Source: Leuctra nigra (taxonomy: Eukaryota > Arthropoda > Insecta > Plecoptera > Leuctridae). Taken from it: a stretch of 64,000 nt of DNA. Below, in pieces: positions 6,964 through 60,470 of the stretch. The position numbers and the translations under genes are program-made. Position 1 is the first letter of the stretch. The number at the start of each line of letters is the position of its first letter. The stretch spans positions 21,880,309 through 21,944,308 of the forward strand of contig OW203766.1 of assembly GCA_934045905.1 (NCBI GenBank). Reading direction: 5' to 3'. A model generated the notes under the pieces. That model was not told where the DNA came from and did not search any database. It worked only from the letters and a program-made list of their open reading frames with translations.

Positions 6964-9900
6964 GTTTGTTGAAAATAATATAATATTTTATATACGAATT
7001 ACAAAACTTCTGACATTCCCAGTTTGATTATGTTTTTGATTCGTATAATTTTTTTCTGTTAGGGGCATAAACTGTAGGTACATTACCCAATCATGCACAT
7101 ACAAAAAATTATGTATTCCGCGCTCGCATAGTTACAATAATTTCAAATAATATTCATTTGTGAAATCTGAGCTACCTACCTATCCATGTTTTCTAAATTC
7201 CATGTATGTTTTATTTTTTCATACGTGATTTTCTTTGTATCCAGCTCCACCGCGAGGAACCGGAACGTATCATAGTTCGGGAGAATGAAGCTGATTGGTG
7301 GGGAGTGATGAATCAGGAGACATGCGTCGAACTACAAGTTCAGACGGAGAAAGGCAGAGGTCTCTGGGCACAGATGTCAGCTGCTGAGAAGAAACAACTC
7401 TGCGAGACCATCGGCTTCGTCGAGGGTGTCAAAAGACCGGAGAAACCCAAGCAGTACACTGGTGGGTTGCTGACTAATCACAATATATCACAATATATAC
7501 ACTTCACATTTACTGAAACCAATATGTTCCATATATTATTCCATATATTATAATATTCCATATGAAATCAACAAACAAATTTTTGATGACCATTTGCTTT
7601 TCTGAATGCAGTTTGTACAACTTATATCTGAACTCTCAACAGAATGCCATTCTGTTAAGCTGAGAATGACTACATTGCAAGGTGAGCGCGCAAGGAAGTC
7701 TTTCTCGCCCTAAACAGAACAACTGACGAGTGGCTCCGTCTGGTGAGATCTCAGACGTACACTGGACAGACTGTAGAATTCATTTGTATTGAACAGTGTA
7801 TTTGTAATTTTAAAGATTTCTATGCTAAAATTCATGAGCATAAATTATCAGTGAAATTACTAAGTATATACACTATTCGTAATTTCAGTGCTGGTAGTTA
7901 TTGTATTTATTGATCTCTGCATGACTTGCTTGCTACTTGTTCACAGAGCACAAGATCAATTTCACGCTCGCCAACTGTTCTCTGAGCCTCGTCAACCACC
8001 GACGCGAGATCTTGGTCGTCACGCTAACGCAGTTCCTCGCGAGCGTGGAGACAAGGCCATCCGCGCAGGCATTCAAAGTGTCGGCGCGTGCAGAGAGCTT
8101 CGTGGTCGAGGGATCCAGCATGGAGAACGACCTCATTCCAATGATCACGGCTGATAATATACACACAGGTATGGATTTTGTGTTTCCAACTTGTACAATC
8201 ATGATGCCTTCATTAGAATTTATTCTAAAATCTTAATTTTTAATTTTTATAAACAATAAATTGAAAATGTGTTCTGATACTAGGTTTTACTGACACTGAC
8301 AAAAGCTCTTTATGTAGTTTTATGTATATCCAGTGTGATGTTGACCAGCAATTTATGATGCCAATTTATTTGCAGGAAATACCAGCTCAAACTTTCTCGC
8401 TGTTGATTTTGAGAAGAATCCATTGAATTCTGAAGCTGATTTTGGTCTGGGCCTTACAATGGAGCCAGTGGAAATCGTGTATCATGAGGTAATATAAAAT
8501 GACCACTTAACTCATTGGTTCGTGGTCGAGTTCTCTCGCTAACGTCGACTCCTATCTCTTCCAGCACGCGATGTCGGAGATAATCAACTTCTTCCAGACC
8601 AAGTCGATGGCTCTGCAAGAAGTCGTGGAGTTCTCCCGACAGCGAGCCAAGCAAGTGGCCAGCGTCGGTTCCACTCTCGTCAAGTACACCGTCGCTCGAC
8701 ACAAGACATTCAACATCAACATGGATCTGAAGGGACCCTACTTCGTCCTTCCCGAGATGGGATCTGTGCAGAAGTATGTTGATAGGGAATATGCAAAAGT
8801 TTTTTAATTCGGTTAAAGTACAATTTTTCACATTGACAACATAAATGCTGGTAAAACACATTAGTATTTTCAAACTCAAAAGTGTAAATTTTCAATCATA
8901 AATATGACATTTCAATTTACTGGACATTTTGGCAGGAATATAATATTCCTAATGTCGTTTTCGGCTGGCCGCACTGGGGTTGCACTGAGCTGCACTGAGT
9001 GCAAGTGGCGTGTTCGACTGGCAGTGTGCAGTTGCTCTGGGGCAATGTTTTCGTATTCGACTGGGAAGTGGTGCACACTGGGTGCGCACTCAGTGCACTA
9101 TTTCTTGCTCGGAAATATTTGGTAGAGTTGCCCCCTCCACTCCGCCGCACTCCGACAAAATGGCGGCACGAAAAACAAAATTTATGTTGTTACTGGAGGT
9201 TTTCCTTCAAAACACTCGGGAGCTCAATTTCTTCGGTTGCCATTTGAAAATAGCTGTCAGTGTCAAAACACAAAATCAAAACATATCATTCGTATTCGGC
9301 TGAGACCGCACTGGGGGCAGCACTAGGCAGCACTAGGGCAAAACCAGGTTACGACATGACGTCACGATCAAGAACTCAGTGCAACCCCAGTGCGGCCAGC
9401 CGAAAACGACATAACATAACTTAAATGAGTGATGTCATATTTTATTGTAACCATGGCAACATCATTGCTGGTTGATAAAAATTATGTCACTGGTTAGGAA
9501 ATGTCAGGAATACTGTTTTCCTGTCAAAATCTCAACTGTATTTCAATTTCATATTTATGATTAAAAAAAATTTACACTTTTGAGTGTGCTTTAGGTAGGT
9601 ACCTACCAACAAATATGTTGTTTTGTTACCTTTTTTGAAATATGGTATTTAATAAATTTATGCCTATTCCCTATTCATACGTGATTGAATTAAGATGACT
9701 TAACGAGGTTTACCTTCCACCATTATCTTTTGTCTAGTTTTTATTTATCACTTAATTTTTCTGACCATTTCTCCAAAGAATATACATATATGATATTCTA
9801 CCTCCGATCATCAGAAATAAACTGAAGATCTTTAGATCATGGTCTGAGGATGAAAGAATGAATGTGGTTTCTTGTTTTGCAGGGGCGGCAGTGTTCTGGT

Positions 9901-18900: not shown

Positions 18901-21900
18901 ATGAATTTTTTGTGCCGCCATTTTGAAACCGGAAGTGACGTCATATCTCGTCAACGGTTGGACCGATCGGAACGAAATTTGCGCCAATCGTTTCAGACGG
19001 TCATCTATATGGATTATCAATATCAAAAGACTGAACATTATTTTAAATAAACCGGAAATGACGTCATGAAATTTGAAATACATCGATTTGCATTTCAGCA
19101 ACAACTGTTGATCCGATTGTCTTGATATTTATGTAACGTTTGTACTTTTGATATTTCATTTGACTTGTTATAAAACCAACCGGAAGCCGCCATTTTGAAA
19201 CCGGAAGTGACATCATGTCTCAAAAACGGCTAAACAGATTAGAACAAAACCAGCGCTAAACGATTTAGACGGTCAACTTTATGTAATCAGTAATATTTGA
19301 TGATTCAAATATCGAAACCGGAAATGACGTCACACATTTTATGACCTATACCGGAAATGACGTCATAAATATGCTAAATGACGCTAAATTCACCACTTTA
19401 TACTTTAAAACAGATATAAGTAAACGTACTTTGTAAATAATTATAAATTCAAGGTTGCAGTGTTCTCGGCGGCCATTTTTAAAACCGGAAGTGACGTCAT
19501 ATATCGTAAACGGTTGTACCGATTGCAACCTAAGTTTGGAAATGTGTTGGACTAATAATTATGAATTCAAGACGACATTATTTTCGGCCGCCATTGTTAA
19601 AACCGGAAGTGACGTCAAATATCGAAAATGGCTGTACCGATTGCAATCAAATTTTGGAAATGTGTTGTACTAATAATTATGAATTCAAGACGACATTATT
19701 TTCGGCCGCCATTGTTAAAACCGGAAGTGACGTCATATATCGAAAATGGCTGTACCGATTGCAACCAAATTTTGGAAATGTGTTGTACTAATAATTATGA
19801 ATTCAAGACGACATTATTTTCGGCCGCCATTGTTAAAACCGGAAGTGACGTCATATATCAAAAACGGCTGTACCGATTGCAACCAAATTTTGGAAATGTG
19901 TAGGAGTAATAATTATGAATTCAAGACGACATTATTTTCGGCCGCCATTGCTAAAACCGGAAGTGACGTCATATATCGAAAACGGCTGGACCGATTGTAA
20001 CGAAACTTAAAGCTATTCTTCTTGGATAATTATTTTAATCTTATATACCAAACGCAACTTTTCTAAGTATCCAAATCGGCATAGGCGTATTTTTTTAAAG
20101 AAATAAGTTCTTGCACGGACACAAGCTGTGCTACAAGCTGTATGAATAAACTAACAAAAGAAGTGATATCCCAGAAAAAAACACTCCGTGTAAAAAAGGC
20201 AGCCAAGTCTCTTTACTTTAAAAAAATTCAACACCGAAAAGGAGTGATATCAAAAAAGGAGCCAAGTCAATGACATTTCCAAATATTTAATCGTATCTTT
20301 GAAATAAAAGTATAAACACCGAGAAATACTTTACAAAAGGACTTGGCGCATCGTTTTTTTAAAGACATTTTTCTATTCATAAGCATGTGCCATTTATATA
20401 CAACCGTCATTTTGAATGTTTAGAATAATAGGGAAACATCTTTCAATTAGGTACATATTATACATACCTTCTGTAAAATATTTTCTATATGAATATATAC
20501 GCTATGAAACTTGTTGTCTATGCTTTCTATAAATATACACAATAGTTATCTTCGTAATATTGTTTCGTGGTGAATATAATTAAGTCTCATCATGCGTTAT
20601 ACCTTCACATCATGTAACAATTTCTATTAATACACATTTTATAAAAATACATTTCACAAAGAAGACAGTCATATTGAATTTCTATTAAAAAATTTAACTT
20701 TATACACTTGACACTTCAAAAATATATAATTGTGTTCCATTAGTTAGTAATTATTTGACAACGTTTCATGATTTCCTTCAGTCAAGATCAAATTATGAAA
20801 AGATACCAGTCTAATATCGCCATATTAACAGTACTGCAAGAATATGTATGAGCCCACTTCCAATTGATATGAAGGGATGTGTGTTGTGAAAAATATCCGA
20901 CCGAACCGGGGCACGAACTTGGGACCTCTCACTTGCCGGGCGAGAGCTCTACCAACTGAGCTACCCGATCGGACGGGCGGACATTAGACACAACACACTG
21001 ATGAGGATCCTGACTCCTGACTCCATGGAAGTTTTCCAAAGAAACCTACATTCTCACCACTTCCAATTGTTATGTAATTCTTTCACCCTTATATTACTTA
21101 TATATTACAGCATAAAATCATGCTTCTATCGCCATTGACAAAACTATAAAATAGTCATTACTAAAAGTAGCTTGATTCATAGATTCTGGCTCTAATAGAA
21201 AGAGGAAAATGTACCTACTTGTAAATTTCTTTCCACTTTTAGGATAGAATGATGTCTTTAAAAAAACGATGCGCCAAGTCCTTTTGTAAAGTATTTCTCG
21301 GTGTTTATACTTTTATTTCAAAGATACGATTAAATATTTGGAAATGTCATTGACTTGGCTCCTTTTTTGATATCACTCCTTTTCGGTGTTGAATTTTTTT
21401 AAAGTAAAGAGACTTGGCTGCCTTTTTTACACGGAGTGTTTTTTTCTGGGTTAAATATTACGCGAATAATAATTCAATGACCAATGTTTATGCCGGCAGT
21501 CAGTTGTTGACTATTTACAGCCCTTTTCAGAGTGACTTTTTGCTCTAATTCTTAGAAACAGGGATTCAACCCTCCACCCGTGTCTGTTTTTTTGTTGAGA
21601 GACCCACTTGTCTTTGAGATAGAGCAGGTAGTGCCAGCTGGGGTGCCGCGGAAAAGGGAGGGAAGTCAGGCGGACATTCTGCTCCAAAAATAGAGGACAT
21701 TTTTGATAGAAATAATCCTGTATTCTCCGAAAATTGTATTATACAAAATAAATACTTCGATTTATAAACTGAAATCACATGTTATATTTCAACTTGGGGC
21801 CAAATATTACTTCGAATTACGACTTACGCAAATTTCGGTTTATAATTTATTTTAACATGTAACAGATTATACTGTGGACGGGACTTGAGTTTACTTCGAT

Positions 21901-52900: not shown

Positions 52901-55900
52901 TTACAAAATCGATTGGGACCATGTCGTGTGACGTATCAAACTGAAGAATGTGGTAAACGCAATATAATTAAAGTGTTTTAAAATGGATCTTTTATTGTTA
53001 TTTGATACAGCAAGTTAATTAGCTAAGCTATACAATAATTAATAGGTACCTAAGTAGGAAAAATGTTTTTGATACTGCGCTGTAATTTTGAGAATTGGAT
53101 TTATATTCATCCAATGACAAAGCCGTAATTTCATGAGGAAAAATCATGCGTCTTAGTCACTTTTATTTGGAATTATAGAGAATGCAAATTTACCCAGGAG
53201 GCCAAGTCTTGAAACTTACGCCTTCAGGACGCAAACGCTCTCGGACGTCATAAAGTCCCATTTACTGTAAGAATGATCGCCATTGAAACATAAAGTCAAG
53301 CCACTTATTTGATTGGCATCCAGTAATCTATTGGAAACAATTTATTAACATTATAATTATAATTACAGATATTATACAGTCATAAAACCTTATTCAAAAT
53401 TAAGCTAAACAGTTCAAGGTAGATTTCAAGGTCATCATTCTTACATTAAATGGGACTTTATGACGTCCGAGAGCGTTTGCGTCCTGAAAGCGTAAGTTTC
53501 AAGACTTGGCCTGACCATAAAAATACAAATATGAGACAAGTTGGTACAACAAATTGCAAGTTGAAATTGTCGTAATTATTGTCGTGGACAGAGAGATAAT
53601 TTGAAGAGATGAAATAAGGATTTAATAAAATTATGTAATGTACCTACTCCACAAATATCATACCTTGTGGTTTATTCTCAATCAAAATTATACATCTAAT
53701 CAGCAATTATTTTTAATTATTGAACAAAATCTAATTTAACCACTACTAATAATAATATAATAATTATGGCATTATGGTATTTGTTACAACCATGATTAGA
53801 TAAATCATGATACATTCATCATAGGTACATAAATTTTGCAGTACCTTTAGCAGGAAAACCGAAGTCTTGATTGATTATAAAATTTACAAGTATTGAGCAA
53901 AATCTATCATTTGAATAATAATACTAATTATAATAACAACTAATTATGACATTGTGGTATTTGGTACAACCATGATTAGTTAAATTTTTGGCCTATTCCA
54001 TGATTTGGAAACCGGTGACATCTATAATGTGCTGATCGTCAGGACTTTTTCTTGTGTTCTGCGAGCTGTTATTGCATAGAACCACTGTACATCGTGTTCC
54101 CGGCATAGTGAAGTATGTACATCATGAATATCTACTATACAAGAATTGTAATACGTAAAAACAACGATTATGAAACACCTCGACGAACTAAGATGCACAC
54201 GGCTAAATGGCGAGACATACAATACAGCGAGCGCTTGACGACCCGCTAGAGACAGGTGGTCCACAGTGACGTCACACGCCCTGAGGCGAGTGGCGCGTAG
54301 TCCCTATGAATCGAAGCAACCTCCCCCTATTCACCGTCCTTGGTTCTAGCCATCGAATTGACTAGTTTCATACGTAGTGCCATCTACAGCGGTGGTCTTG
54401 TCGAAAAGCACTGTACAAAACGCGTAGATATATGGGTCATTCTCCACTAAATGGAATATTGAAGAAGCTAAATAATTTTTTAAATAATATGATTTTTTCT
54501 GCTTTTTATTTCATGGGGTCTTTGAAAATACTTGTTGAAGTATTATTAATTGCTCATCTGAGATCAAAATGAAATAATATAATTTACTGTGTTAATTAGA
54601 TTAGTGAAACATAGGGGAATGACGAAATTTTAGAGCTAGGGGAATGACGTACTGAGTTTAAATATGCTGCCAAATCTCTAGTAATACATTTTATGAGTTG
54701 AAATTTTGAGGTTATGTTTGGGTCACTATTATTATCACGTTTTAATTGCCAAAAAGTATGATTTCAACATAAGTACATAATTATAATCGAATAGGGGAAT
54801 GATGGAGAGAAAACATACGCCCCTGAAAATTGTAGCATTTTTGCTATTATAGCCACAATTATCATTCAAATCACATATTTCGAGTGTTCCTGGCTTGTCA
54901 GCACCATCAAGCTAGTTGCTACACCTTGACACATGTTAAATACCAACTGCAAATTATAATAAAAATATATATTAAAATGGCTTCAGAAAGATGCCAAAAC
55001 TCGGGACACGTTTTAATTACAGTTAAAACATAACATTTTATAAATGAATGTGAATTTGTTACATATGTCAAGATACACTATTAATAAGCTTAACATTCAT
55101 TTTTGGTACATTTAATTAATGTTCTTTAAGATATATGGCAAAATCAATGCTGGAAAACAGGGTGAGGGACAAGCTAGGGGAATGACTTTTGGGGGTATTT
55201 TGGGCTGTGATAATAACCTTACACTATGGCTGTAATTGTCAAGTAGCATCTATATAAAAATAAAAAAAATAAAAGCATAGATATTTTCTTTAATATCTAT
55301 ATTAAAAATGGACAGGACAAGAATATTCCATTTAGTGGAGAATGACCCACATGCACCAATTCCATTTTAGAAATTCTAAATTTTTCCGGGCCTACAAGGC
55401 CCGGACTCACTTTTTCCTAGGGGGTTCACCCCCCCCCCCAGTCCCCCCATATTATTCGCTAACAAATGAACAATTTTTCGGCAGAGGATGTAATACTAAA
55501 TAATTAATTGTAAATTAATTAATTAATTAATTAATTATTGTAAATGTTTAAAACAAAGATGACAAAACAATTAATAATATAGTGTATAAATATGAAAATG
55601 TAATATTTTGGGAAGTTATTGAATTTCTAGGGGTATCTAGTACCTTAAAGGCCTCTGGTGGCGATTTATTACAAATATGAGCTCTTGCTGTCTTGAACGT
55701 CGAGGCTTCATGAATTTTAATATGCATGTATTTTTGGGTCTCGTTAACGTGAACAACCGAGCTGTTCACATGAATTGATTAAAATGTTTAATCCAGTCGA
55801 CCTGTGGCTCTGATCGCAATCACAATGAGCAGCGTCTGACGCTCGGCCTCACGCTCATTAGAAGCTAAATCTGCAAGCATCTGCTGGCTGCATTTATGAG

Positions 55901-58900
55901 CAACTAAACTACTTATTTCAATTTCAAAATTATTCTGATTTCAGGCTCTTAAAATGGAGAAAAGTGCCGAAGGAGGTGACCTTGATGCCAGCCACGGGAG
56001 CCACACAAGCCACGGTGGTGGGATGGGCCGCGGGAGCCGAGGCGGTGGTAACCGTTACCGTGGTGGCGGCATGGGCATGGGAGGTGGAGGACGAGATGAT
56101 AACCGTGGACGGAATCAAGATGTGAGTTGTGTGCTTATTTACTGCTATTCAATAGTACCTTCCGTTGAGGTGTCACCTTGTCGGTGCATTTTTTGGGATG
56201 GATGAAAATGTGTGGAATTGTTATGGAAAAGTACCTTTAGAAAACGTTTATTAGCTTGCAATGATGAAAGCAATTACCGTTTGATAATCGTAGTGATATT
56301 AATGCTGGCTGCATTTATTCTGAGCAACTAGGTAGCCTACTTCATTTAATTTCACAATTAGGTAGTTACTTTTACCTAGGTTAATTAAAAATTTACCTTT
56401 CAATTATTTAGGATCGCTTAAATGAGCGTCTGCAAGCTATTGGCGGCGCCACTCACGATCTCCCACCATTGGATCTCGCGGAGAAAAAGTTTTCTGGAAG
56501 AAACCGACTCTACATCGGCAATTTGACAAACGATGTGTCCGAAGAAGAGATGACACAGCTTTTCCAACCATACGGCGAGATCGCTGAGCTGTTCGTGAAC
56601 AAGGAGAAGAACTTTGCTTTCATTCGTCTGGAGTATCGAGCTAATGCCGAGAAGGCCAAGAAAGAGCTTGATGGCATGATGAGGAAGGGACGGCCAATCA
56701 AGGTCCGATTTGCTCCGCACAGTGCCGCCATCAAGGTGAAGAATCTCACACAATGGGTCACCAACGAGCTGTTGGAGAGGGCTTTCTCTGCCTTTGGGGA
56801 GGTGAGTTCAAACCGATTACAGACCTACAAGGAGATTTCTGAATTTATAAGCAACTTCTTCGATATGGACAGGGACCTATGCACTGTTAACAAGAACTTC
56901 CAATAGTCATTGTTATTCACAGTCATTTTATGCTACCTTATGAAATAGTATGGTAGGTCACTTAAACTGGTTGATATTTTGTTGTACGTTTTGCACTTAA
57001 AAACTGAGACTTTGCAATTCTTTTGATAATGTATCCGATGGCTGGACAATGTATGGAAGAAAATGGGTGGGATTGTTATGAAAAGTATTTAGAAAACTTT
57101 TATTAGTAAGCTTGCAATGATGAAAACAATTACCGTTTGATAACAGTGATATTAATGCTGGCTGCATTTATTCTGAGCACTACTTCATTTAATTTAACAA
57201 TGAGTTACTTTTCCCCCCTTATTTGATTTACCTAATTTTCTACAGCCTTGGATGACTTATTATAACCAATGCTCTTTCAGATTGAACGAGCCATCATCAT
57301 TGTGGATGAGCGCGGAAAGTCGATGGGCGAAGGCATCGTGGAGTTCACCCGCAAGCCGGGAGCGATGCATGCTCTCCGCCGCTGCACGGACGGCTGCTTC
57401 TTCCTCACTGCGTAAGTACACAGCCACATTAGCAACATACCATAAGTTCTTAGAAATTGGTCAAATGAAATTCTATGTCCTTTGGTCTGAAATTTGGTTC
57501 AAAAATATGTTCATACATTTTATGAAGCAATGATGACAGTAATTACCGTTTGATATTTTGGTGATATTACAACTGGCTGTATTTTTATACACTGAGCTTA
57601 AAACGTAAGGTCACCTTTATCTGTGTTCAAAATATTTCAATGTCTACATCAAGTTCTGTTTCTCTTGCAGTTCTCTGCGACCGGTCGTGGTGGAGATCTT
57701 GGATTCTGTGGAGGACTTGGACGGCTATGCCGAGAGGAACTTGCCGAAGAAGACCCCGGACTACTACAAGGCTCGAGAGGTTGGCCCGCGCTTCGCCGCG
57801 CCGGGAAGCTTCGAGTACGAGTACGGCACGCGCTGGAAGCAGCTCTATGAGCTCAAGAAGCAGAAGGAAGAGGCGCTCAATCGCGAGATGAAGATGGAAG
57901 AGGAGAAGCTTGAGGCACAGATGGAATACGCCAAATACGAGCACGAGACAGAGAATCTGCGAGATCGTAAGTTGCGGTTCCTTCTATCCCTTCAAAATTA
58001 CATAATGTTTTTTAATTGCTGTACTATTGCTCATTTCATTTCTGCTTTTTTGTTTCGGTTGGACCTAGCTACAATAAAATTAAAATCTCATTGTTCAGTC
58101 TTCAACATATTTGTAAATGTATATATTCCGATCTCCTATATTTTCTAATGCTCAATTGCATTTAGATGAAATTGAGCTTGCCATAGCCGAATAACATACT
58201 ATTTGAACTTGATCTTTATTAAGCCTCAATCATTCTAATTAGACTGGGTACTTTAATTTATTAAAATTGTGATTGTAATTTACATGCAGTGCATGTTGAT
58301 TGATTTTGCTGACTGAGTGTTCGTTTGACTACAGAGCTGCGTCAGCGCGAGCAAGACCGCGACCGACAGAAGCGGGAGTGGGAGATGAAGGAGCGCCAGG
58401 CAGAGGAGCAGCGACGCAACGACGAGGATCTGATGCGCCGCCAGCAGGAGGAGATGCAACTGCGCATGCACCACCAGGAGGAGGAGCTCCGTCGGCGGCA
58501 GCAAGAGAACACTCTCTTCATGCAGGTGCGTTCCGTCCCCACCTCCCTTCCTCGACGCGTGTCAAGTGATGAGGCTATGATGAAAGTAATTACCGTTTGA
58601 TATCCCCGTGATATTATTACTGGCTGTATTTACTCTGAGCTCAATATAGCAAGTTAATTCTGGATCACCGTAAGCCATTGAAATGATCTTCAATTTCCTG
58701 CTATGTAGCAGTACATTTGTTAGCATTCTTCTTGATTTGGGATTGGGTTCAGAAAATTCATGATGATATCATAAATATAACAGCCTTCTGCCAGTCAATG
58801 AAATTCATGTGAGCATTGGTAGATTAATATAATAATAAAATGATAGGGGTGTGCGAATATTCGAACTTCGAAAATATTTGGTTCAAATATTCGATTTGGT

Positions 58901-60470
58901 ATTCGAAAAAAAAGTACAGTAAACCCTCATTATTTCGAACTTCAATAATTCGAATTTAGGGGTAAATTCGAACTAGGTGGATGGTCCCAGTGTTCAGTAT
59001 AGGCTTTACAATGTTAAATAATTTTGATAAATCGAATTTTAGGTTATTTCGAAATTCGAACTGAATTTTGGTCCCAGCCCATGTTATAACTTGCATACAG
59101 TTGTTTTAATTCGAACTTTGCAAAAGGATTGACAAAATAATCGCGAACAAACTTCGAAAAAACAAACTCAAACTACACATTTCCAATGTTTCCAATAGCG
59201 TCACGTCACAAAGAGAGTAGTCAAACTGCTCTCTGTTGTGTTGGGGTGGGGGAAGTGTAGGTCTAGTCTCTTTAGTATACAGGTTAGCCTACCCTGGAAC
59301 ACTTTAGCCGGGAATATTCAAACTTCATTCAACATTTTGAAAGCATTTGGCCGCGTATATAGTGCGAGTTAGCTTTTGAAGGCAAAAAATAATGAATCAA
59401 CATCGCGTTATATCAAATCAATAGGTATGTACTAAAAAAATAAAAAAATTTTTTTTTTTTTTTTTTTTTTTTATATTTTGAACTTTTTTAATTCGAACTG
59501 GGATTTTTTGGGTCCCCTTGAATTCGAATTAACGAGGGTTTACTGTATTCGAATTTTCGAATCGTTCATGTCTTTTAATTCAAAATAATCCCGCCATTTC
59601 TCATATGGGAGTGTTTTTGCAATGCTGCCAACTGCTGCAAAGTCTAAAACTTCAACCGAAAATTGTCATGGCTGCCATTTTGATTTCGAGGGATATTATT
59701 TGTAGGTTATTGTTCCTCTAGGTAGACCTTCCTCATACGCCATTTGTTCCTAGGTTAATTTAATTTTTGTGATGATTAATGACAACAATATAATCCTAGC
59801 TTATTACATCATAATCAGTACATTCATTTATATGGCCATCTTTCATTCTGGTCACATGAAAAAAGTTTGGTGTCCATTTTTTTATTTTAATGTAGGTTTC
59901 AACTATTCGATATTCGAAATATTTTTGTCAATTATTCGATATTCGTATTCGAAGTCAAAAATCACTATTCGCACACCCCTATAAAATGAATATACCTAAA
60001 TACTCGTCCGGATTTGTGTTCATTACAATATGTAATGGAGGCATGTGTGTGTACACATTATCATTTATCAGCAGTTGATTAAAAATAAAACTACAGCTGA
60101 CATCAAGAAAAGTACTTAAACTTGACAGAATTGTTACTAGATGTATTCTGATGTATATCTTGGTGTAATGTCTGCAGGCTCACCAGCTCAACAGCCTCCT
60201 GGACCAACAGGAGCAAGCCATGCATGACTCTCCCGTCAACGATATCCGTGATCTCGAATACGAACAAGGTCAGTGGAGTAGCCCGTCTCATTAACAACAT
60301 TCCCCATGCTATGATGAAAGTAATTACCGTTTGATTGTCAGTGATATTACAACTGGCTGTATTTTATACACTGAGCTAAGACATCATAGATCAAGTAACT
60401 TGATCAAACTTGATTGGATTTTAATTTTTGTTTTGTTCTTCCAGCCGCAGGACTAAGCAGCATTCCATCG
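49958..60470 (+). CDS. nonA: nonA (DBHS family, NONO/SFPQ/PSPC1 orthologue), first 8 coding exons, 3' end off window
   Basis: Exons: 49958-50239, 55945-56121, 56412-56801, 57281-57411, 57671-57966, 58335-58525, 60178-60268, 60445-60470, all in phase, 528 codons. DBHS proteins are nuclear RNA/DNA-binding dimers acting in transcription, splicing and RNA retention; Drosophila nonA affects vision and courtship song. Residues 1-153 form a Gly/Arg-rich RGG region. RRM1 is about 184-253 (NRLYIGNLTND, NFAFIRLEYRANAEKA). RRM2 is about 259-338 (AIKVKNLTQWVTNELLERAF, SMGEGIVEFTRKP). The NOPS segment is about 339-390 (LDGYAERNLPKKTPDYYKAR, PGSFEYEYGTRWKQLYELKK). A long Glu/Arg/Gln coiled coil follows to about 490. 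Exon 8 is a 26-nt microexon (AAGLSSIPS). The start is the first ATG in exon 1. Introns 2, 3, 4, 6 and 7 carry snoRNA copies. Confidence 0.94.
50240..52160. other. First part of nonA intron 1
   Basis: AT-rich intron. 50390-50465 is a GGTAGGTACCTA low-complexity palindrome. 50965-51030 repeats ACCATGGCACCATGTG-like words. No gene or clear transposon boundary was found. Confidence 0.5.
52161..54349. mobile_element. TIR element of ~2.2 kb in nonA intron 1
   Basis: CTAGCCCAAGGTGGTTGAAT, AGGGGGAGGTAGCCTTGATC at the left face the mirrored right end (GAAGCAACCTCCCCCTATTC, ACCGTCCTTGGTTCTAG). Imperfect arms are about 45 bp. Inside are the MITE at 53200-53511 and an imperfect direct repeat (about 53690-53810 and 53875-53985, sharing TACAACCATGATTAG). 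There is no coding capacity. Confidence 0.65.
53200..53511. mobile_element. MITE with ~80-bp inverted repeats
   Basis: GGCCAAGTCTTGAAACTTAC and ACGCAAACGCTCTCGGACGT with CATAAAGTCCCATTTA at the left are mirrored at the right end, with a single-base indel. At 312 bp it has no ORF and is nested in the 52161-54349 element. Confidence 0.88.
54433..55349. mobile_element. TIR element with GGGGAATGA internal repeats
   Basis: TGGGTCATTCTCCACTAAAT followed by GGAATATT is perfectly mirrored at 55322-55349. The interior contains at least four copies of AGGGGAATGA in one orientation (54611, 54638, 54793, 55167 regions). At 917 bp it has no transposase. Confidence 0.85.
55386..55447 (+). repeat. GC hairpin and poly-C run
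   Basis: A perfect hairpin CCGGGCC-TACAA-GGCCCGG (55386-55404) is followed by GGGGTTCA and a run of about 11 C. It lies in nonA intron 1 and its origin is unknown. A (TTAA)6 run follows at 55513-55536. Confidence 0.6.
55872..55905 (+). pseudogene. Decayed snoRNA 3' half in nonA intron 1
   Basis: GCTGGCTGCATTTATGAGCA and the following AACTA match the 3' half and flank of the intron-2 snoRNA copy (GCTGGCTGCATTTATTCTGA-GCAACTA), but the D box CTGA has been deleted and no C box or guide precedes it. It lies about 40 nt before the exon 2 acceptor. Confidence 0.6.
56256..56327 (+). ncRNA. C/D-box snoRNA copy 1 (nonA intron 2)
   Basis: Terminal stem TTGC (56256-56259) with GCAA (56324-56327). C box ATGATGA 56261-56267. 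Conserved guide AATTACCG, then D'-like TTGA. C'-like GTGATAT. Conserved CTGGCTG.ATTT. D box CTGA 56320-56323. It ends about 84 nt before the next acceptor, a usual distance for intronic C/D snoRNAs. C/D snoRNAs guide 2'-O-methylation by fibrillarin. Not present as an annotated family to my knowledge; the call rests on boxes, stem and five-fold conservation. Confidence 0.85.
57112..57180 (+). ncRNA. C/D-box snoRNA copy 2 (nonA intron 3)
   Basis: Stem TTGC with GCA. C box ATGATGA 57117-57123, guide AATTACCG, TTGA, GTGATAT, D box CTGA 57173-57176. Flanks on both sides (ATTGTTATG..AAAGTA, CTACTTCATTTAATTT) also match intron 2, so introns 2 and 3 share a duplicated segment of about 190 bp. About 100 nt before the acceptor. 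Confidence 0.85.
57526..57598 (+). ncRNA. C/D-box snoRNA copy 3 (nonA intron 4)
   Basis: Stem AGC (57526-57528) with GCT (57596-57598), a compensatory difference from copies 1 and 2. C box ATGATGA 57530-57536, guide TAATTACCG, TTGA, GTGATAT, D box CTGA 57592-57595. Shares TTATACA before the D box with copy 5. It ends 72 nt before the acceptor. Confidence 0.85.
58571..58642 (+). ncRNA. C/D-box snoRNA copy 4 (nonA intron 6)
   Basis: C box ATGATGA 58577-58583, guide TAATTACCG, TTGA, CGTGATAT, ACTGGCTGTATTT, D box CTGA 58635-58638. Flanking GAGGC/GCTC gives a bulged terminal stem. It sits only 45 nt after the donor and about 1.5 kb before the acceptor because a hAT element entered downstream. 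Confidence 0.82.
58844..59981. mobile_element. hAT-like element, ATTCGA-rich ends (nonA intron 6)
   Basis: TIRs TAGGGGTGTGCGAATATTCG and TAGGGGTGTGCGAATAGTG are flanked by the 8-bp duplication TAAAATGA (58836-58843 and 59982-59989). Subterminal arrays of TATTCGAA/ATTCGATATTCG are present. The 1,138 bp includes the nested Tigger-like MITE at 58917-59545. Confidence 0.93.
58917..59545. mobile_element. Tigger/pogo-like MITE nested in the hAT element
   Basis: CAGTAAACCCTCATTATTTC at the left and mirrored GAATTAACGAGGGTTTACTG at the right, flanked by TA (58915-58916 and 59546-59547). At 629 bp it is related by its ends to the 17968-21949 insertion. Confidence 0.85.
60308..60377 (+). ncRNA. C/D-box snoRNA copy 5 (nonA intron 7)
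   Basis: C box ATGATGA 60311-60317, guide TAATTACCG, TTGA, AGTGATAT, AACTGGCTGTATTT, D box CTGA 60371-60374, with short GC-containing flanks that can pair. It ends 67 nt before the acceptor of the microexon. Confidence 0.85.

Follow-up and report, generated by a model that had tools for sequence, protein, structure and literature searches.

Can a gene for a DBHS protein act as host to a multi-copy family of box C/D snoRNAs, and if so, what would such a family guide? The question arises at the nonA/hrp65 gene of the insect Leuctra nigra, which lies in the 64,000-nucleotide stretch of contig OW203766.1 analysed here (hereafter, the window). Introns 2, 3, 4, 6, and 7 of this gene carry one copy apiece of the same short module (Table 1).

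The host gene and the module

The insect nonA/hrp65 (DBHS) gene of the window was recognized from six predicted coding exons that join into a single reading frame of 422 aa; prediction places the start of another exon at 60445. The product contains tandem RRMs (RRM_1, two stretches) and a NOPS domain, all above the cut-off, which is the domain composition of DBHS proteins. Its top database hit, hrp65 from the orthopteran Anabrus simplex, covers 87% of the query at 81% identity. Every splice site used here is a prediction, and our intron numbers count an untranslated exon 1, assumed to lie upstream of 55945.

Table 1 Features of the nonA locus (window positions; copies are numbered 5' to 3').
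Feature	Position	Strand	Details
nonA/hrp65 host, coding exons 2–7	55954..60268	+	spliced reading frame; exons 55954-56121, 56412-56801, 57281-57411, 57671-57966, 58335-58525, 60178-60268
Predicted nonA introns with a module			intron 2, 56122-56411; 3, 56802-57280; 4, 57412-57670; 6, 58526-60177; 7, 60269-60444
Degenerate relic of a sixth copy	55882..55932	+	intron 1; from local alignment with intron 2
Copy 1	56256..56327	+	intron 2; C box 56261, D box end 56323; stem TTGC/GCAA
Copy 2	57113..57179	+	intron 3; C box 57117, D box end 57176; 3-bp stem
Copy 3	57525..57599	+	intron 4; C box 57530, D box end 57595; stem AAGC/GCTT
Copy 4	58573..58641	+	intron 6; C box 58577, D box end 58638; 3-bp stem including a G-U pair
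Copy 5	60308..60376	+	intron 7; C box 60311, D box end 60374; 2-bp stem
Transposon-like insert, 1138 bp	58844..59981		intron 6, between copy 4 and the acceptor

Each copy reads, in order, C box AUGAUGA, four nucleotides, the guide AAUUACCGU, D' box UUGA, a variable spacer, and C' box GUGAUAU followed by UA, and then three variable nucleotides, the motif CUGGCUGyAUUU, a stretch of variable length, D box CUGA, and a short terminal stem. An earlier, sequence-only reading of this locus had described one such module in each of the five introns. Its C/D box anatomy is retained here, except that the variable spacer is now placed between D' and C'; naming the D' and C' boxes, the target of the guide, and the relic of a further copy goes beyond that reading. 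The count was also borne out, as the pattern of C box plus guide had five mismatch-free matches in the window, compared with a mean of 0.00 in 100 dinucleotide shuffles. All five copies have the C box AUGAUGA and D box CUGA that characterize box C/D snoRNAs, spanning 63, 60, 66, 62, and 64 nt from C to D in copies 1–5. The internal boxes, D' UUGA (one change from CUGA) and C' GUGAUAU, are likewise identical in 5/5 copies.

When the five copies were aligned, the mean pairwise difference was 0.000 for the C box, the guide plus D', the C' box, and the D box. It rose to 0.055 for CUGGCUGyAUU, 0.30–0.35 for the remaining pieces, 0.58 for the D'–C' spacer, and 0.67 for the 3-nt link. Invariant boxes and guide set against divergent spacers are what one would expect if selection acted on a C/D RNA. 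In intron 5 (57967-58334), a covariance model of the five copies had no match, and its three further window matches (18.0, 13.3, and 13.2 bits) were weak, with none in nonA.

Position in the introns and the terminal stem

From the end of the D box to the acceptor, copies 1–5 are separated by 88, 104, 75, 1539, and 70 nt. Splicing-dependent C/D snoRNAs of mammals usually lie at the acceptor distance seen in four of these copies. The corresponding claim of the sequence-only reading held for copies 1, 2, 3, and 5 (70–104 nt); copy 4, at 1539 nt, does not fit the usual distance. The C box of copy 4 is located 51 nt past the intron 6 donor, and a transposon-like insert stands between this copy and the acceptor. 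The insert carries TAGGGGTGTGCGAATA as inverted ends and is accompanied by a target duplication of 8 bp, TAAAATGA, features from which we take it to be hAT-like. Subtracting its 1138 bp still leaves the acceptor of copy 4 393 nt away. A pyrimidine-rich stretch ending in AG is present at 58708, 70 nt downstream of the copy 4 D box; this AG is a possible acceptor, hidden or no longer in use, with which copy 4 would have the usual distance.

The terminal stems comprise 4, 3, 4, 3, and 2 bp in copies 1–5. Two of four stem positions change on both sides, and 73 of 500 shuffles equalled that value, so that the covariation is not significant. The compensatory stem changes proposed in the earlier reading are weak by this measure, and we dropped them as structural proof because they fall within the shuffle range. 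RNAalifold predicted seven other pairs in the copies, with the terminal stem absent, and single-sequence folding of the copies returned nothing diagnostic.

A probable target in 18S rRNA

In the insect's own 18S rRNA, the pairing partner of the guide AAUUACCGU is GCGGUAAUU, and the fifth guide nucleotide upstream of D' faces U ~595, a number counted from the estimated 18S start. The L. nigra genome holds an 18S with GCAGCCGCGGTAATTCCAGC, and 18S rRNA bearing GTGCCAGCAGCCGCGGTAATTCCAGC was found in three places. Specifically, cmscan identified a partial SSU at positions 138-1303 of the insect's own rDNA locus L032, and within the 9.9 kb of this locus the best D' site was GCGGTAATT for 5/5 copies, with the fifth nucleotide on U. 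Across six eukaryotic rDNA contigs, the 530-loop site ranked best in 27 of 30 copy-contig pairs; on contig L027, copies 1–3 scored higher at other sites. The guide–18S duplex consists of eight Watson-Crick pairs and one G-U pair. Its length alone is not significant, as 26 of 300 shuffled guides equalled it on the own 18S fragment and 49 of 100 did as well on an 8-kb rDNA contig.

The partial 18S of L032 (138-1303) shares a 10-kb stretch with a 5S rRNA gene on the opposite strand (9713-9831). This stretch contains N, and four 28S strings had no exact match in the two own-assembly stretches examined.

The snR77/HBII-135 group is listed as guiding 18S Um580 in Arabidopsis, Um627 in human (HBII-135), and Um578 in yeast (snR77) (PMC3511168, PMC8817022), and one of these listings comes from a section devoted to the targets that C/D snoRNAs had in the last eukaryotic common ancestor (PMC3511168). 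We find the target assignment convincing because the nonA copies share with Rfam snoR77Y both the guide and its register to D', and snoR77Y belongs to a group with a listed 18S target. The own nucleotide at ~U595 would be the homologous one, since the register is shared and the 530-loop sequence is conserved; the nonA copies and snR77/snoR77Y/HBII-135 would thus address the same 18S U. As judged from these comparisons, the copies most likely guide methylation of one ancient 18S site.

Relation to the snR77/snoR77Y/HBII-135 group

A comparison with Rfam, which the sequence-only reading had suggested as a check, yielded no snoRNA family at the gathering score anywhere in the window, where the sole gathering match was a tRNA. 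The snoR77Y model (RF01178; clan CL00057) reached at most 24.1 bits against a gathering score of 52, with an E-value of 0.34 (copy 4, 4801-base scan). In that scan, it was the top match by bits and not by E-value (Vax2os1_2, 0.19; SNORD110, 0.25). When copy 4 was scanned alone, the E-value of snoR77Y was 0.0061. For copy 3, snoR77Y (21.7 bits) followed SNORD36 (23.1 bits), both sub-threshold. Other C/D families led for copies 1, 2, and 5, all of them sub-threshold, and snoR77Y was absent among the matches listed for copy 5 scanned alone.

A tRNA-Ala gene was recorded at 20897-20971 on the minus strand of the window (ARAGORN, anticodon printed ggc; Rfam tRNA model, 38.7 bits).

At the level of individual elements, the snoR77Y model has AAUUACCGU-yUGA, with the guide directly upstream of D' as in the nonA copies, and its consensus shares with them CUGGCU upstream of the D box. 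The nonA copies differ from snoR77Y in lacking the long insertion between the C box and the guide. HBII-135, the human member of the group, is also named SNORD65. CUGGCU is also found in yeast snR77, as read from the reverse complement of a published probe (PMC12848939). Chicken GGgCD16 is listed with a 13-nt duplex, as a single copy, and in another host, whereas the nonA family combines a shorter duplex with five copies (PMC2653536). Because the Rfam gathering score was missed and duplex length is not significant, the assignment rests on guide and register and not on formal family membership. Our results suggest that the nonA copies are isofunctional with, and probably orthologous to, the snR77 group, without being members of its Rfam family.

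Origin and confinement to nonA

Copies 1 and 2 align together with their flanks (56198-56376 vs 57053-57215; 179 and 163 nt) at a score of 211, compared with a maximum of 25 in 30 shuffles, which indicates that copy 2 is a duplicate of copy 1 with flanks. Intron 1 holds a degenerate relic of a sixth copy that corresponds to the 3' part of copy 1 and the downstream flank; its 5' half is absent and its D box is lost. Alignment scores of the relic were 57 vs 26 with intron 2 and 40 vs 33 with intron 3 (controls being the maximum of 30 shuffles), and local alignment with introns 4, 6, and 7 gave no signal. The earlier statement that nothing else is conserved between copies in these introns was wrong for copies 1 and 2, given their shared flanks, and the relic also speaks against it. 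The relic sits just before the exon 2 acceptor. The remaining copy pairs align over the module or no more than ~30 nt beyond it. Since copies 1 and 2 share flanks and intron 1 retains a relic, it appears that intron segments were duplicated within nonA and that one copy decayed. These intragenic duplications apparently happened at different times. More generally, snoRNAs shift between hosts over time, and host genes are typically broadly expressed (PMC3511168).

To search the rest of the genome, we scanned the L. nigra assembly (536,196,549 bases, 144 contigs) for the C box plus guide at one spacing with up to three mismatches; the resulting counts are lower bounds, and a guide at another distance from the C box would escape. 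At least 47 matches were obtained. Five were exact, and these are the nonA five; the other 42 among the matches listed all differed at three positions, not at one or two. The reversed control pattern gave at least 52 matches, compared with at least 47 for the real pattern. The sequence-only reading had named a dispersed repeat as an objection to its own proposal. The only exact matches listed in the genome are these five, and we rejected the dispersed-repeat reading because, among the matches listed, no match beyond nonA stood above the control. Viral contigs scanned for the module and for 18S yielded nothing.

Weighing the explanations

We consider it very likely, on the combined sequence comparisons, that the modules represent a set of five paralogs, intron-encoded box C/D snoRNA genes that are isofunctional with the snR77/snoR77Y/HBII-135 group and probably its descendants. 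It is quite improbable that they are genuine C/D snoRNAs with another or an additional target, in which case CUGGCUGyAUUU would be a selected D-side guide to 28S rRNA or to an snRNA or mRNA, and the match to 18S rRNA would be incidental. Such a role would agree with the conservation of this stretch in all five copies and in the intron 1 relic, and with the shortness of the D' duplex. However, its distance to the D box differs among copies, and a canonical D guide does not tolerate a variable distance to the D box. In addition, a D-side search of three loci (L024 and L028 of the six contigs, and the own L032) found no consistent rRNA target, with the best sites differing among copies. The stretch could alternatively add to the 18S duplex itself, since CUGGC could pair with a GCCAG beside the guide site, with seven Watson-Crick pairs in copies 1 and 2 (equalled in 26 and 23 of 1000 shuffles, respectively). 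This extra pairing is unsupported for copies 3–5 (627, 491, and 605 of 1000 shuffles) and, with G-U allowed, in every copy (443 to 623 of 1000), and is no more than a weak idea.

Flanks common to copies 1 and 2 and the relic, together with the documented mobility of snoRNAs (PMC3511168), would also suit a mobile repetitive element or a retroposed snoRNA of which several copies came to lie in nonA by chance. We regard this as barely credible, considering that the genome scan, at its one C-box/guide spacing, found no copy beyond nonA above the control. It is highly improbable as well that the modules are conserved regulatory or splicing elements of the nonA introns, yielding no processed RNA. 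The presence of one module per intron, near the acceptor in 4/5 cases, is what such an element might show, but C, D', C', and D stand in canonical order, the spacers diverge as they would in a C/D RNA, and predicted intron 5 is without a module. As C/D snoRNA genes, the five copies are real, well formed, and probably functional, with a probable ancient target and an unusual host.

For such genes, C/D proteins would bind each intron during splicing of the nonA pre-mRNA, and the debranched intron would be trimmed to an RNA of ~70 nt. The D' guide of this RNA would pair with the 530 loop of 18S rRNA at GCGGUAAUU, and fibrillarin would 2'-O-methylate the U opposite the fifth guide nucleotide (~U595 of the own 18S). 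The copies would have arisen via local duplication of intron segments, with the intron 1 copy decaying, and five copies per pre-mRNA would probably increase the dose of one guide.

What is new at this locus

The arrangement of several copies in one host is ordinary. Among human C/D families with at least two expressed members, 59.5% have all of them in one host gene, a configuration ascribed to cis recombination, and the copies occupy different introns of one gene, as they do in nonA (PMC8178906). The nonA family differs from these in belonging to an insect and in having a DBHS gene as host. In Drosophila, 95% of expressed snoRNAs are intronic, and the intronic clusters in protein-coding genes (Uhg1-8, lola, Arpc2, and dom are among the hosts of intronic clusters) resemble the nonA copies in being intronic (PMC13228274). 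The word nonA is absent from the main text of that paper, its tables lying outside the word search. The sequence-only reading had held that a DBHS gene as multi-copy snoRNA host was undescribed. The literature agrees with it to the extent that, among the matches listed for open-licence papers, a set outside which the two main Drosophila surveys fall, none reported that nonA/hrp65 or any other DBHS gene hosts snoRNAs. The novelty is thus the host gene, for which we found no earlier report.

It is possible, if doubtful, that nonA has come to be the only source in this insect of an ancient 18S guide, amplified in dosage, which would couple DBHS splicing and expression to 530-loop methylation. If true, the expression of a paraspeckle-type DBHS protein would be tied to methylation in the decoding region of 18S rRNA. 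The locus adds a DBHS gene to the candidate snoRNA hosts and, for an ancient 18S site, provides a candidate insect guide missed by Rfam models at the gathering score. Within one gene, it would illustrate the birth of snoRNAs (copies 1 and 2), their maintenance (invariant boxes and guide), and their death (the intron 1 relic).
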